DNA of 64,000 bases, taken from assembly GCA_913052475.1 (NCBI GenBank), contig CAJXEJ010000001.1:60751-124750 (forward strand), read 5' to 3'. This DNA is from an uncultured Dehalococcoidia bacterium. Lineage in GTDB: Bacteria; Chloroflexota; Dehalococcoidia; Lucifugimonadales; Lucifugimonadaceae. Position 1 is the stretch's first letter. Every line of letters starts with the position of its first letter. Positions 12,875 to 38,890 of this stretch are shown here, piece by piece. The position numbers were made by a program, and so were the translations under genes. The notes beneath the pieces are model-generated. The model was not told where the DNA came from, did no database searches, and saw only the letters and a program-made list of their open reading frames with translations.

Positions 12875-13438
12875 CTATTTTCTGCGTGCGAGGAGCGAGC
12901 CGATCACTTGCGGAGCAGCTTCGATGGCCCGTTCTCGGAGCTGTTCGGGGGTCAAACTGCCGATCGGGTGCTGGATGACCGCGAACGGGTAGTCGGGCAT
13001 GTCACCGAGGTTGGCGATTGCTTGCGCACCAGATTCGAACGGCTCAGTACAAATTGCGATTGCGGGGACGCCGAGGGCTTCTAGTTTCATCGAGTCGTAC
13101 ACACTGGACGACGAGCAGCTTCCTCAGTCGCCGTTGGCCAGTAGTGCCACATCGACTTCTTTGGAGAAATCACTCAGAAATTTCGGTTCGGCGGGCCGGG
13201 ACGCTTCGCCTTTGTCAACTTTGTAAGCACCGGCTACGTCAAATCGCTCAGCTAGAACGTCGTAAATGGCATCGAGTAACGGTTCCGACTTCATCTTGGA
13301 GTTACGCATGAGGCCAACTCTCATCCCTGCGAGCGATTCGGGACGATCCGCCATGCCATCGGTTGCGATCGACAGCGGTGCCGTAGGGTCTAGGACTCGG
13401 ATTGTTTCTTGTGTCATGTGACTCTCCTGAGCGAACAT
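12875..13438 (-). CDS. UGSC-motif putative selenoprotein with in-frame UGA (Sec) at 13124..13126
   Basis: ORF 13124..13438 ends ...EVDVALLANGD then TGA, and the same frame continues GSCSSSSVYDSMKLEALGVPAIAICTEPFESGAQAIANLGDMPDYPFAVIQHPIGSLTPEQLRERAIEAAPQVIGSLLARRK*. Reading UGA as Sec gives U-G-S-C. Alternative start MTQETIRV at 13417. Confidence 0.85.
13094..13112 (-). promoter_or_regulatory. Candidate bacterial SECIS hairpin for the UGSC gene
   Basis: Downstream of UGA: GTCGT-CCAGTGTGT-ACGAC. 5-bp stem, one C/U mismatch, then CA/UG pairs closing a GUG loop. 19 nt lie between UGA and the loop. Confidence 0.5.
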
Positions 13439-13439
13439 G

Positions 13440-14504
13440 TTACTTGCTTAGATTGATTGCCCGAGTGACGATCTTTGCCCGTGAGCCGTTCGACCAAGTT
13501 GGGATCACAGCGCTCCATCCACCTCCAGCTCCGCCTACGACAATAGGGATCGCTGATTCGGGAGAGCTTAGAACGCTAATCGGTCGATCGCGCTCGATGG
13601 CGTCGAGTTTGGTGTTGTTTTCTTGTTGCGCTCCGCTCTGGAGCCCCATAGCGGTCCATTCAGATGCGGTTTTACGGGCGTTTTCGAATAGGTAGTTGCC
13701 TACTTGCTCCTTCTGCCATCTAGCCTTTTCGAGGTAGGCCGCGTGTTCGGGAGAGATGATGATTGCGACTTCATCGAGGCCGGGTCCCAGTGGGTAGAGA
13801 CGTTGAGCGAACGCGTCGAGGATGCCTTCGGGTGTGTTGGCTTCGTGTTCTCCGAACTGCGTTGCGCTCAAACCCGGGAAGACCGTTACCGCACTTTTGC
13901 CTTCTTCCACACCTCGCGTGACGTGCATTGGGGTCCAACCATAAGGCAGATCGTCTTCGTTCTCGGCGATGCACCAGGAATATTTGCCGGGATGGCCGAG
14001 GGTTGCTTTGTCGAGTCCGTCGTCCGTTCTCGTACCAAGCACGTTGATGATTAACAGCCGGATCGCTCTGCCGATGGTGGCGTTGGCACGGTAGCCGGGT
14101 CCGAAGGCCGAGGTTTTGGAGTTGATGCCTAGTTCTTCGGTGATAGGTCCGTTTACAACCAGAAGAATCGCTGCGCCCATCGTGGAAACCGTTATGCCGT
14201 GGAGATTGAACTCCGGCTGCGTGATGGCGCCGATCGCAGCAACGACAACAGGCATATATTCGGGCTTGCAGCCTGCCATGATGGCGTTGATGGCAGCCTT
14301 TTCGGCGGTGATAACTGCGCCTTTGACGGGTTCGATGCCGAGGATGGCATCGGGACGGAGGTTCGCCGCTTCAAGTGTGGCGGTTACCGCTTCGGGCGTT
14401 GGCGGCACAACGGGTAGACCGTCGGACCAGCCGTTTTCGAAGTAGGTTTCGATGGCTTCAAGCACGCCGGGCAGTTCGATGGAGTTGGAGGTCAGGCGGG
14501 TCAC
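13440..14504 (-). CDS. Conserved protein of unknown function, immediately upstream of the UGSC gene
   Basis: 354 aa; VLEAIETYFENGWSDGLPVVPPTPEAV...FNLHGITVSTMGAAILLVVNGPITEELGINSKTSAFGPGYRANATIGRAIRLL...; 2-bp-scale junction with the downstream gene suggests translational coupling. Confidence 0.75.
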   Translation of the reverse strand: MTRLTSNSIELPGVLEAIETYFENGWSDGLPVVPPTPEAVTATLEAANLRPDAILGIEPVKGAVITAEKAAINAIMAGCKPEYMPVVVAAIGAITQPEFNLHGITVSTMGAAILLVVNGPITEELGINSKTSAFGPGYRANATIGRAIRLLIINVLGTRTDDGLDKATLGHPGKYSWCIAENEDDLPYGWTPMHVTRGVEEGKSAVTVFPGLSATQFGEHEANTPEGILDAFAQRLYPLGPGLDEVAIIISPEHAAYLEKARWQKEQVGNYLFENARKTASEWTAMGLQSGAQQENNTKLDAIERDRPISVLSSPESAIPIVVGGAGGGWSAVIPTWSNGSRAKIVTRAINLSK

Positions 14505-34361: not shown

Positions 34362-35213
34362 CTAGCTCTGTGGGGATGTTTCTGGTTCTCGGATGTATGG
34401 AATGAGACGAGGAGACTCGAACTGCTCTTCGCCTTTAATGTCTTCGAGCATGTCGAACGCCGCACGGACATCGGTTTCCGCGCCAGAGAGTGAAAGCATC
34501 ACAGCGCCTTCTGATCCAGCAACACCGCCAGATGCGATGTGGGTTGCCTTGACGCCGGTAAGAATCGCGATTGCCTCTACTTCGGTCACAACCTGGGCGT
34601 TTACAACGGGCATAAGGCCTGCCGACTGACCCATCGTGAGATCCCAGAGGTGGTTACCGCTGACTCGGGCTGCCTCGACTACATCGGGAATCAGTCGTTC
34701 GAGGCTGACCGGTGCGACCCAGTGTGAACCACGTGCTGTGAGGGTGCCCCAGATTCCTCCGACTGTTCCACCGCCGCCATCGGCCGCCAGAACACCAATG
34801 TTCCCATTGGGGTCGACTGCATTAGCACCTTTGATAGATACATCGCATGCGCGGAATTGACCGAGGGCTTGTGGCGCGGGAATTTCAGATGGCTTGCCGT
34901 TTTCGAACACCCATGGACCGAGTCGGTCTTCTTCGACAACGCTGGCGAGTCGACCTTCCGCCACGATTCCAGCGGTGCTATTGCCCTTATCACCGGCCTG
35001 CCCGGTGAGTTCTTCGAGAAGGTAGGCAGGTGTGACTCCGCGGGAGATAACGAACCAGCCGTCTTCGAGGGATCGTTTTACTTCAGGCATTTGAAGAACC
35101 GCCTTAGCGAGAAGTCGCTTCGATTCGCGAGGAAGGAGCATCACGAGGGCGTGGAAGCGGTCGTCACGCAAATGCGGAGCCGGCTTAATAAAGCTAGAGG
35201 TATCGTAGAACAT
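34362..35213 (-). CDS. Conserved protein of unknown function
   Basis: 283 aa ORF with own terminator; C-terminal TEVEAIAILTGVKATHIASGGVAGSEGAVMLSLSG. Confidence 0.75.
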   Translation of the reverse strand: MFYDTSSFIKPAPHLRDDRFHALVMLLPRESKRLLAKAVLQMPEVKRSLEDGWFVISRGVTPAYLLEELTGQAGDKGNSTAGIVAEGRLASVVEEDRLGPWVFENGKPSEIPAPQALGQFRACDVSIKGANAVDPNGNIGVLAADGGGGTVGGIWGTLTARGSHWVAPVSLERLIPDVVEAARVSGNHLWDLTMGQSAGLMPVVNAQVVTEVEAIAILTGVKATHIASGGVAGSEGAVMLSLSGAETDVRAAFDMLEDIKGEEQFESPRLIPYIREPETSPQS

Positions 35214-36207: not shown

Positions 36208-36314
36208 TTTAATAGACGGAGTTCGCCGTGGTGTTCGTATGCGAGCATTTCGGGACAAATAACCAGCGCAGTGTAAGCGACATCCAGGAAAAAGACCGTA
36301 CAATCTGGCGCGTC

Positions 36315-37046
36315 ATGCCTATCAACAAGACCACCAACTCGTTTGCCGATGCCGTCGCCGATATTCCGTCGGGTGCGTCGATCATGATTGGCGGATTTGG
36401 TGGTGCAGGGGGTCAGCCGACTAGGCTCATGATGGCTCTTCGGGATCTTGGTGTTGGCGACCTTACGATTATTGGCAACGTTGCGGGAATATCGAAGACG
36501 ACCGGATATGGCTGGCCCGATCATCTCGATCCGATCGACCAGGGAATGTTTTTCGAGAGTGGCCAGGCGACAAAAATCATCTGCTCGTTTCCCGTACCTG
36601 GCACCACGAACCCTCTCAGTGACATCGAAAAGGCGTGGCGAGAGGGCAAGGCCGACGTCGATATCGTTCCGCAGGGCACTTTGATCGAGCGCATTCGAGC
36701 CGCCGGTGCTGGCATTCCCGGCTTCTACACCCCAACGGGTGTTGGAACGACAGTTGCCGAGGGGAAAGAACATCGCGAATTCGATGGCAAGGCGTATTTG
36801 CTTGAGGAAGCACTTTCTGCCGACTACGCACTGATCCGTGCACAGAAAGCCGATACCAGAGGCAATTTGCAGTACATCGGCACTTCGCGTTCGTTCAACC
36901 CTGCGATGGCGACCGCTGCGAAAACGACGATTGTCGAGGTGGATGAGATCGTCGAGCCGGGTGGAATTGATTCCGAACGGGTTGGCACGCTCAGCACATA
37001 TGTCGATCGAATTGTGCAGCGCGAATCGGGAGACCCGTTGCCGTAA
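36315..37046 (+). CDS. 3-oxoacid-type CoA-transferase subunit A
   Basis: SFADAVADIPSGASIMIGGFGGAGGQPTRLMMALRDLGVGDLTIIGN; FYTPTGVGTTVAEGKE. Confidence 0.92.
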   Translation: MPINKTTNSFADAVADIPSGASIMIGGFGGAGGQPTRLMMALRDLGVGDLTIIGNVAGISKTTGYGWPDHLDPIDQGMFFESGQATKIICSFPVPGTTNPLSDIEKAWREGKADVDIVPQGTLIERIRAAGAGIPGFYTPTGVGTTVAEGKEHREFDGKAYLLEEALSADYALIRAQKADTRGNLQYIGTSRSFNPAMATAAKTTIVEVDEIVEPGGIDSERVGTLSTYVDRIVQRESGDPLP

Positions 37047-37741
37047 TGACTTCTGTGCACCCCAACGGAAACGACCCTGCACCACGACTCGATCGTGCGG
37101 CGATAGCGAAACGGGCGGCACGCGATCTCGTGGACGGATCTACGGTGAACCTCGGCATTGGCATCCCGACTATGTGTGCCGACTTTCTGCCTGACGGAGT
37201 CGAACTGCTCTATCACGCAGAGAACGGAATTTTGGGGTTCAAAGAACTGTCAGCACCCGGTGAGGGTGATCCGAATCTGATGGACGCCGGTGGTAAGTTC
37301 CCGAAGCTGGTGCCGGGTATGGCGTTCTTCGATTCGGTGGAATCGTTCAGCCTGATTCGAGGCGGTCATATCGATGTCACCGTTCTCGGCGCTCTTCAAG
37401 TGTCACATACCGGCGATCTTGCGAACTGGATGATCCCAAAGCGCGGAATCGGCAGCATTGGTGGTGCGATGGATCTCGCCGCCAACTCGAAACGCGTGGT
37501 CGTCGCCATGGAACACACCGCAAGAGACAATATCGCGAAGATTGTCGACGAATGTTCATTCCCGCTTACGGCACCCGATTGCGTTGACGAAATTGTCACC
37601 GACATCGCTGTAATTGAGATCGATCGGAAGAACGATCGGCTGGTTTTGCGAGAAGTCGCACCGGGGTGGTCGTGTGATGATGTTCAGGCGCACACAGAAG
37701 CCAGGCTTGAACTTGATGGCGAGCCCGGCCTGATGGCGTAG
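37046..37741 (+). CDS. 3-oxoacid-type CoA-transferase subunit B
   Basis: TVNLGIGIPTMCADFL, HAENGILGFKELSAPGEGDPNLMDAGG; overlaps subunit A stop. Confidence 0.93.
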   Translation: MTSVHPNGNDPAPRLDRAAIAKRAARDLVDGSTVNLGIGIPTMCADFLPDGVELLYHAENGILGFKELSAPGEGDPNLMDAGGKFPKLVPGMAFFDSVESFSLIRGGHIDVTVLGALQVSHTGDLANWMIPKRGIGSIGGAMDLAANSKRVVVAMEHTARDNIAKIVDECSFPLTAPDCVDEIVTDIAVIEIDRKNDRLVLREVAPGWSCDDVQAHTEARLELDGEPGLMA

Positions 37742-37805: not shown

Positions 37806-38807
37806 ATGACTAATACTGGCAACCGCTCAAATCATGAACCTAGCAAAGAGACGTTCGACGAGTTTCGCAACTCGTTCAGCTACGGCTCACGCACCGATCT
37901 GTTTTTCAAGTGGATGAAATCCGGTTCGGCAGATCTAGCTGCTGGTTTTCTCCAGGAACTTCTCGATCTGACTGGGCACTTGATCGACGACGGTGATACT
38001 AGGCCGATCGTCGAGACGATCATTAATGCTCAAGCCGAGGCTTATGCGGGACCAGGTAGCTTCGAATACGAAGACGGGCCTTTCACAAAGCTCGATCAAC
38101 CGGTGTCCGAAAGTCGTGTCGCACTCCTCACTACAACTGGGCATTTCGTCAAGGGCAACGACCCAAATCCGTTTGGAATTGAGAACCTGACCCAGGAACA
38201 GGCGACAACAATGACTGCGGAGTTCGGCAGGGCTGATCCCGTTCTATCGGAGATTCCAACAACGACTTCAGCTGCCAACACCCGGGTTCGCCATGCTGGC
38301 TACGATATCCGTGCATCGGCGTCTGACAGAAATGTTTCGCTACCGATCGACAGAATGAACGAACTGGCCGATGAGGGGGTCATCGGAGGGTTTGTGAGTC
38401 CGGCTTTTTCGTTTGTGGGACTCACGTCTCAACTTCGTTTACGGAACGAGATAGGCTTCGAGTGGGCGGCACGGGCGAAGGCGGCTGGTGCTCAAGCCGC
38501 ATTGCTAATCCCGATATGACCGTTATGTCACGTGTCGGTCGGGCACGTAGCAAGGGCGTTCGAAGCGGCAGGCATCCCGAATGCCATAATCATGTCAAAA
38601 GTGTTTAGAGATCGAACTGCGGCGATGAGTCCGCCTCGCGTATTGTTAACCCGCCATCCAATGGGCCGGCCAGTGTCGGCACCGTTTGATGTTGAAAAGC
38701 AGCGAGGCGTGCTAAAAGCGGGTTTGGAATTACTCGATTCCGCGACAGAAGGTGGAACGATCATCGAGTACGAGAAGCCATATCGCACAGGACCGTTCGA
38801 CAACTGA
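37806..38807 (+). CDS. Glycine/sarcosine/betaine reductase selenoprotein B-family protein, in-frame UGA (Sec) at 38517..38519
   Basis: ORF 37806..38519 ends ...ARAKAAGAQAALLIPI then TGA; same frame continues PLCHVSVGHVARAFEAAGIPNAIIMSKVFRDRTAAMSPPRVLLTRHPMGRPVSAPFDVEKQRGVLKAGLELLDSATEGGTIIEYEKPYRTGPFDN*. Gives U-P-L-C-H at the position where Cys homologues have CPxCH. Confidence 0.88.
38530..38548 (+). promoter_or_regulatory. Candidate bacterial SECIS hairpin
   Basis: ACGTGTC-GGTCG-GGCACGT: 7 pairs (one G-U), loop GGUCG, 17 nt between UGA and the loop. Confidence 0.6.
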
Positions 38808-38890
38808 GCCAGCAATGAACGAAAAGCACGCGGCTCCGGCAAAACATAGTCGCCCAGAACAAGTTTCCGTTCCGAAAGCGCTACGAAGCT

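Follow-up and report, generated by a model that had tools for sequence, protein, structure and literature searches.

A predicted stand-alone selenoprotein of the GRDB superfamily encoded beside a CoA-transferase pair in an uncultured Dehalococcoidia bacterium

In the 64,000-nucleotide stretch of DNA analysed here (the window), the gene at 37806-38807 can be called a selenoprotein gene with near certainty, an identity that rests on comparative evidence, and its predicted product is, by sequence, a GRDB-superfamily selenoprotein that does not pass as PrdB or GrdB proper. Our account of the whole, to which we give slightly less than an even chance, is that the protein would be a stand-alone selenocysteine (Sec) reductase acting outside the Stickland complexes, with a small acid or its CoA thioester as the favoured substrate. 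The features concerned are as follows.

37806..38807, + strand: predicted selenoprotein gene, GRDB superfamily, stand-alone branch (read-through open reading frame; Pfam GRDB E 7.8e-9; TGA/Cys homologues)
38517..38519, + strand: UGA codon almost certainly read as Sec, first residue of U-P-L-C-H (74 TGA and 13 TGT/TGC in 87 sequences)
38530..38548, + strand: predicted SECIS hairpin, 7-bp stem 38530-38536/38542-38548, loop GGUCG 38537-38541 (fold, covariation, rule-based hairpin)
37806..38075, + strand: N-terminal extension of about 90 aa, which marks a "long" clade (PrdB model match starts at residue 93)
36312..37046, + strand: CoA-transferase subunit A, scoA/pcaI, start uncertain (36312 or nearby) (PF01144 E 1.2e-56; TIGR02429 over cut-off)
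37046..37741, + strand: CoA-transferase subunit B, scoB/pcaJ (PF01144 E 1e-38; TIGR02428 over cut-off)

Comparative evidence for selenocysteine at the in-frame TGA

The reading frame begins with ATG at 37806, contains a single in-frame TGA at 38517-38519 and ends with a TGA stop at 38805-38807. Read-through of 37806-38807 yields a 333-aa product in which Sec is residue 238, in the context ...AALLIPI-U-PLCHVSVGHVARAFEAAGIPN..., and the coordinates, the protein of about 333 aa and the TGA position given in the original prediction were all correct. An open reading frame on the reverse strand (38528-38842) was discounted as shadowing the coding strand.

A homologue was present in 99 of the 400 phylum genomes scanned and in 126 of the 393 class genomes, and in both scans most homologues carried just one in-frame TGA. 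When 87 family members, the window gene itself included, were aligned, the column of the UGA, whose comparison with Cys homologues had been proposed as a check, held TGA (U) in 74 and TGT/TGC (C) in 13. The homologues do not end at the UGA, as they might if it were a stop; they read on through TGA or Cys. The Cys forms sit among the Sec forms, in one sub-branch, and parsimony requires four changes on the tree. Compared with two genes from the same genus, 75% and 74% identical to the window gene, pN/pS over 95 codons downstream of the TGA was 0.126/0.549 and 0.150/0.586, which indicates that these codons are under purifying selection. The genome (about 91% complete) also carries tRNA-Sec with a UCA anticodon, SelA, SelD and SelB, the last with its first 300 model positions on the contig and the remainder beyond the contig end, and the lack of SelB and tRNA-Sec that would have spoken against Sec is thus not the case. 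SelD itself has an in-frame TGA (L082 = G000:C70, match 769-1695) and is probably a selenoprotein too.

Folding of the 41 nt that follow the UGA gives -16.1 kcal/mol (z -2.95), a stability reached by 0 of 200 shuffles; when the UGA is added, the z-score becomes -1.95. One hairpin rule, used for every gene, Sec and Cys alike, detected a hairpin 3' of the column in 59 of the 74 Sec genes versus 1 of the 13 Cys genes, and in control windows elsewhere in the Sec genes in 23, 8 and 16 of 74. Since the folding z-score alone differs weakly between Sec and Cys genes (p 0.09), the case for a SECIS element rests on the position of the hairpin and on covariation. Over the 59 Sec sequences, pairing was found in 79.4% of cells versus 56.5±1.7 in shuffles, and the covariation score was 0.529 versus 0.181±0.020 in shuffles and at most 0.115 in slid controls, over which the hairpin is somewhat favoured because its structure was derived from the same sequences. 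An Rfam scan around the gene gave no relevant match.

Taken as a whole, the in-frame TGA almost certainly encodes selenocysteine. That it is instead a true stop, with a truncated gene or pseudogene behind it, or a sequencing error, agrees with standard gene calling, which ends the gene at the TGA, but we consider this negligibly probable: 74 sequences from many families share the codon and 13 have TGT/TGC there, selection continues past it, the SECIS hairpin covaries and the genome has the Sec machinery.

Assignment to the GRDB superfamily

The joined 333-aa protein matches Pfam GRDB (PF07355) with 35.7 bits, over the gathering cut-off of 22 bits (E 7.8e-9). This profile match, the Sec/Cys exchange, the covarying SECIS hairpin and the Sec machinery uphold the original claim of a selenoprotein of the GrdB/PrdB superfamily. 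The best NCBIfam model is PrdB (TIGR04483, E 6e-28), but the score of 97.8 bits is far below the equivalog cut-off of 300 bits. The window gene is the only GRDB gene in the source genome, in which, at about 91% completeness, neither PF09338 (alpha subunit of proline/glycine reductases) nor PF04723 (GrdA, selenoprotein A) found a match; both are likely to be absent. As a positive control, PF09338 matched 8 of 301 genomes of the phylum and PF04723 10 of 301, largely the same genomes, and in several of these a PF09338 gene adjoins the weakest-scoring GRDB matches (for example G019:C38, G252:C20, G065:C216 and G270:C11). The earlier impression that this is not a Stickland fermenter is thus supported.

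A phylogenetic tree separated, with 100% support, complex-linked proteins with a UG[TS][CG]x motif from proteins of the [U/C]Pxx or UG[IL]C type, which include the window gene. UPxCH, put forward earlier as a motif of the family, is typical of this stand-alone branch, whereas the complex-linked GrdB-type proteins read UG[TS][CG]x. With the low TIGR04483 score, the missing PF09338 and PF04723 matches and the separate branch, the protein does not qualify by sequence as PrdB or GrdB proper. It is homologous to PrdB over residues 93-326 and likewise has Sec in UxxC, but has about 90 additional N-terminal residues and no alpha subunit that could be found. With GrdB/GrdF/GrdH it shares a GRDB domain over the cut-off, and with a complex-linked homologue 27% identity across the Sec region, but it has UPLCH at the redox site, is shorter, and has no GrdA/PF09338 partner that could be found. 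A role as PrdB in D-proline reductase, or as a GrdB-type protein B in a complex resembling glycine reductase, would fit the common superfamily and the PrdB model as best NCBIfam match; given the sub-cut-off score, the genome without both partner families and the full support for a separate complex-linked branch, we consider it very unlikely.

Within the large stand-alone branch, the sequence comparisons place the window gene in a small long clade. The N-terminal extension aligns with sequences from a Desulfobacterales genome, HSG16 (L016), and from three family f44 genomes (L062-L064); it is also visible in further long members (L176-L181). Five long members were available for the tree of 87 proteins, and these grouped together with 99% SH-aLRT support (quick method). 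A contig scan for relatives returned one match, at 47%, in Desulfobacterales HSG16. The extension had no Pfam or PDB match, and neither the protein nor a five-row profile found a meaningful match among PDB sequences. The AlphaFold model built from a two-sequence alignment has a mean pLDDT of 35.6, too low for the model to be used.

Elsewhere among the homologues, one PrdB-like protein (L074:2910-2953) has UPIUH, both redox positions being encoded by an in-frame TGA, and a 16-kb stretch (L071, G388:C27:3000-19000) contains three TGA-bearing PrdB-like paralogues of about 445 aa each, about 285 aa of them from Sec onwards.

The CoA-transferase neighbourhood

Subunit B of the CoA-transferase ends 64 nt upstream of the selenoprotein gene on the same strand, and the order subunit A, subunit B, selenoprotein is kept in the four closest relatives identified (51-75% identity), two of them same-genus genomes and two from another genus of the family (51% identity). 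In the latter two, the outer flanking genes have no match to the flanks in the window, which argues that the trio is kept beyond general synteny. From spacing and conservation, the CoA-transferase pair and the selenoprotein gene probably constitute one operon.

No CoA-transferase pair was found by L016, L062-L064, L180 or L181, where some stretches are short, and no common gene neighbour was found outside the nearest group. L063/L064 have an old-yellow-enzyme-like gene upstream, and there are CaiB-like CoA-transferases near L180; both were named by eye, and neither generalises.

Other selenoproteins and genes in the window

A second selenoprotein gene, of the UGSC family, is present at 12875-13354 on the minus strand, with the Sec codon at 13124-13126 in the context ...ALLANGDUGSCSSSS...; it is probably the one that the original prediction counted as the first. 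The genome has three TGA-bearing copies of this family, two of them elsewhere. The UGSC family (NF041046) resembles the window protein in its Sec-containing UxxC and similar local context, but it is a separate family, the match of its model to the window protein being not significant (E 0.13). The next gene upstream of the UGSC gene (13440-14504, minus strand) encodes a 354-aa protein with no Pfam/NCBIfam match, a possible partner of the UGSC protein. Another protein of 283 aa (34362-35213, minus strand) has no Pfam/NCBIfam match either, and shows 91% identity in the same-genus genome G541.

Proposed function

SelB and tRNA-Sec almost certainly decode the UGA at 38517-38519, aided by the hairpin at 38530-38548, as the comparative evidence shows. 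By analogy with GrdB and PrdB, U-P-L-C-H would be the catalytic redox centre, in which the selenolate of U238 may attack or reduce a small substrate and C241, three residues on, may resolve the selenenyl bond. As neither a pyruvoyl alpha subunit nor GrdA was found, the protein would act outside the Stickland complexes. The 3-oxoacid-type CoA-transferase pair upstream, in this genus and a neighbouring one, points to a small carboxylic acid or its CoA thioester as the favoured substrate; the selenoprotein may be coupled to the CoA-transferase and may reductively remove an alpha-substituent from such a compound. Reduction of a small acid or acyl-CoA is thus put forward tentatively, as a candidate function that falls somewhat short of an even chance. 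To judge by a monofluoroacetate operon in Cloacibacillus, GrdB-type proteins may be open to recruitment for other leaving groups, although the evidence there is transcriptomic and the system includes a GrdE-like partner (PMC10838667).

A serious rival, itself a real possibility though below an even chance, is that the gene does encode a selenoprotein, but one that serves as a general UxxC thiol-disulfide or peroxide oxidoreductase and not as a substrate-specific C-X bond reductase. In its favour, thiol oxidoreductases usually have UxxC as their redox motif, some family members carry Cys, and outside the nearest group the stand-alone genes are mostly without a common partner; yet the sequence belongs to the GRDB superfamily and not to a thioredoxin-like family, and in the nearest group a metabolic CoA-transferase pair is retained alongside the gene.

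Going beyond the proposed acid or acyl-CoA reductase, one might regard the long clade as a distinct selenoenzyme group without pyruvoyl partners which here, with the CoA-transferase, would be a Sec-dependent acyl-CoA/keto-acid reductase outside Stickland fermentation. We consider this broader reading rather unlikely. If true, it would mean the removal of an alpha-substituent before or after CoA activation of a small acid.

Relation to marine selenoproteins and significance

Sec-containing "PrdB" (pfam07355, UxxC) was among the commonest marine selenoproteins in the 2008 Global Ocean Sampling survey, with 235 Sec and 110 Cys sequences according to the part of the paper that treats it (PMC2398784), and recent reviews also list a Sec-containing "PrdB" family. 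Compared by that description, the window gene agrees in pfam07355, in UxxC and in the occurrence of Sec and Cys forms; this part of the paper mentions neither a long clade nor CoA-transferase neighbours (PMC2398784). The window gene is a new member of a kind known from ocean metagenomes since 2008. In a partial literature search, we found no paper that treats SAR202 and selenoproteins together, and none that links a CoA-transferase to such selenoproteins.

Surveys label proteins of this kind PrdB or glycine/proline reductase selenoprotein B, while most of the carriers sampled are without the rest of those enzymes. Given a homologue in 99 of 400 phylum genomes but the alpha subunit in only 8 of 301, a widespread selenium-dependent GRDB-type family is probably misnamed. 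For this lineage, the CoA-transferase neighbour is the best clue, and the first testable lead, to the reaction that the protein may catalyse.
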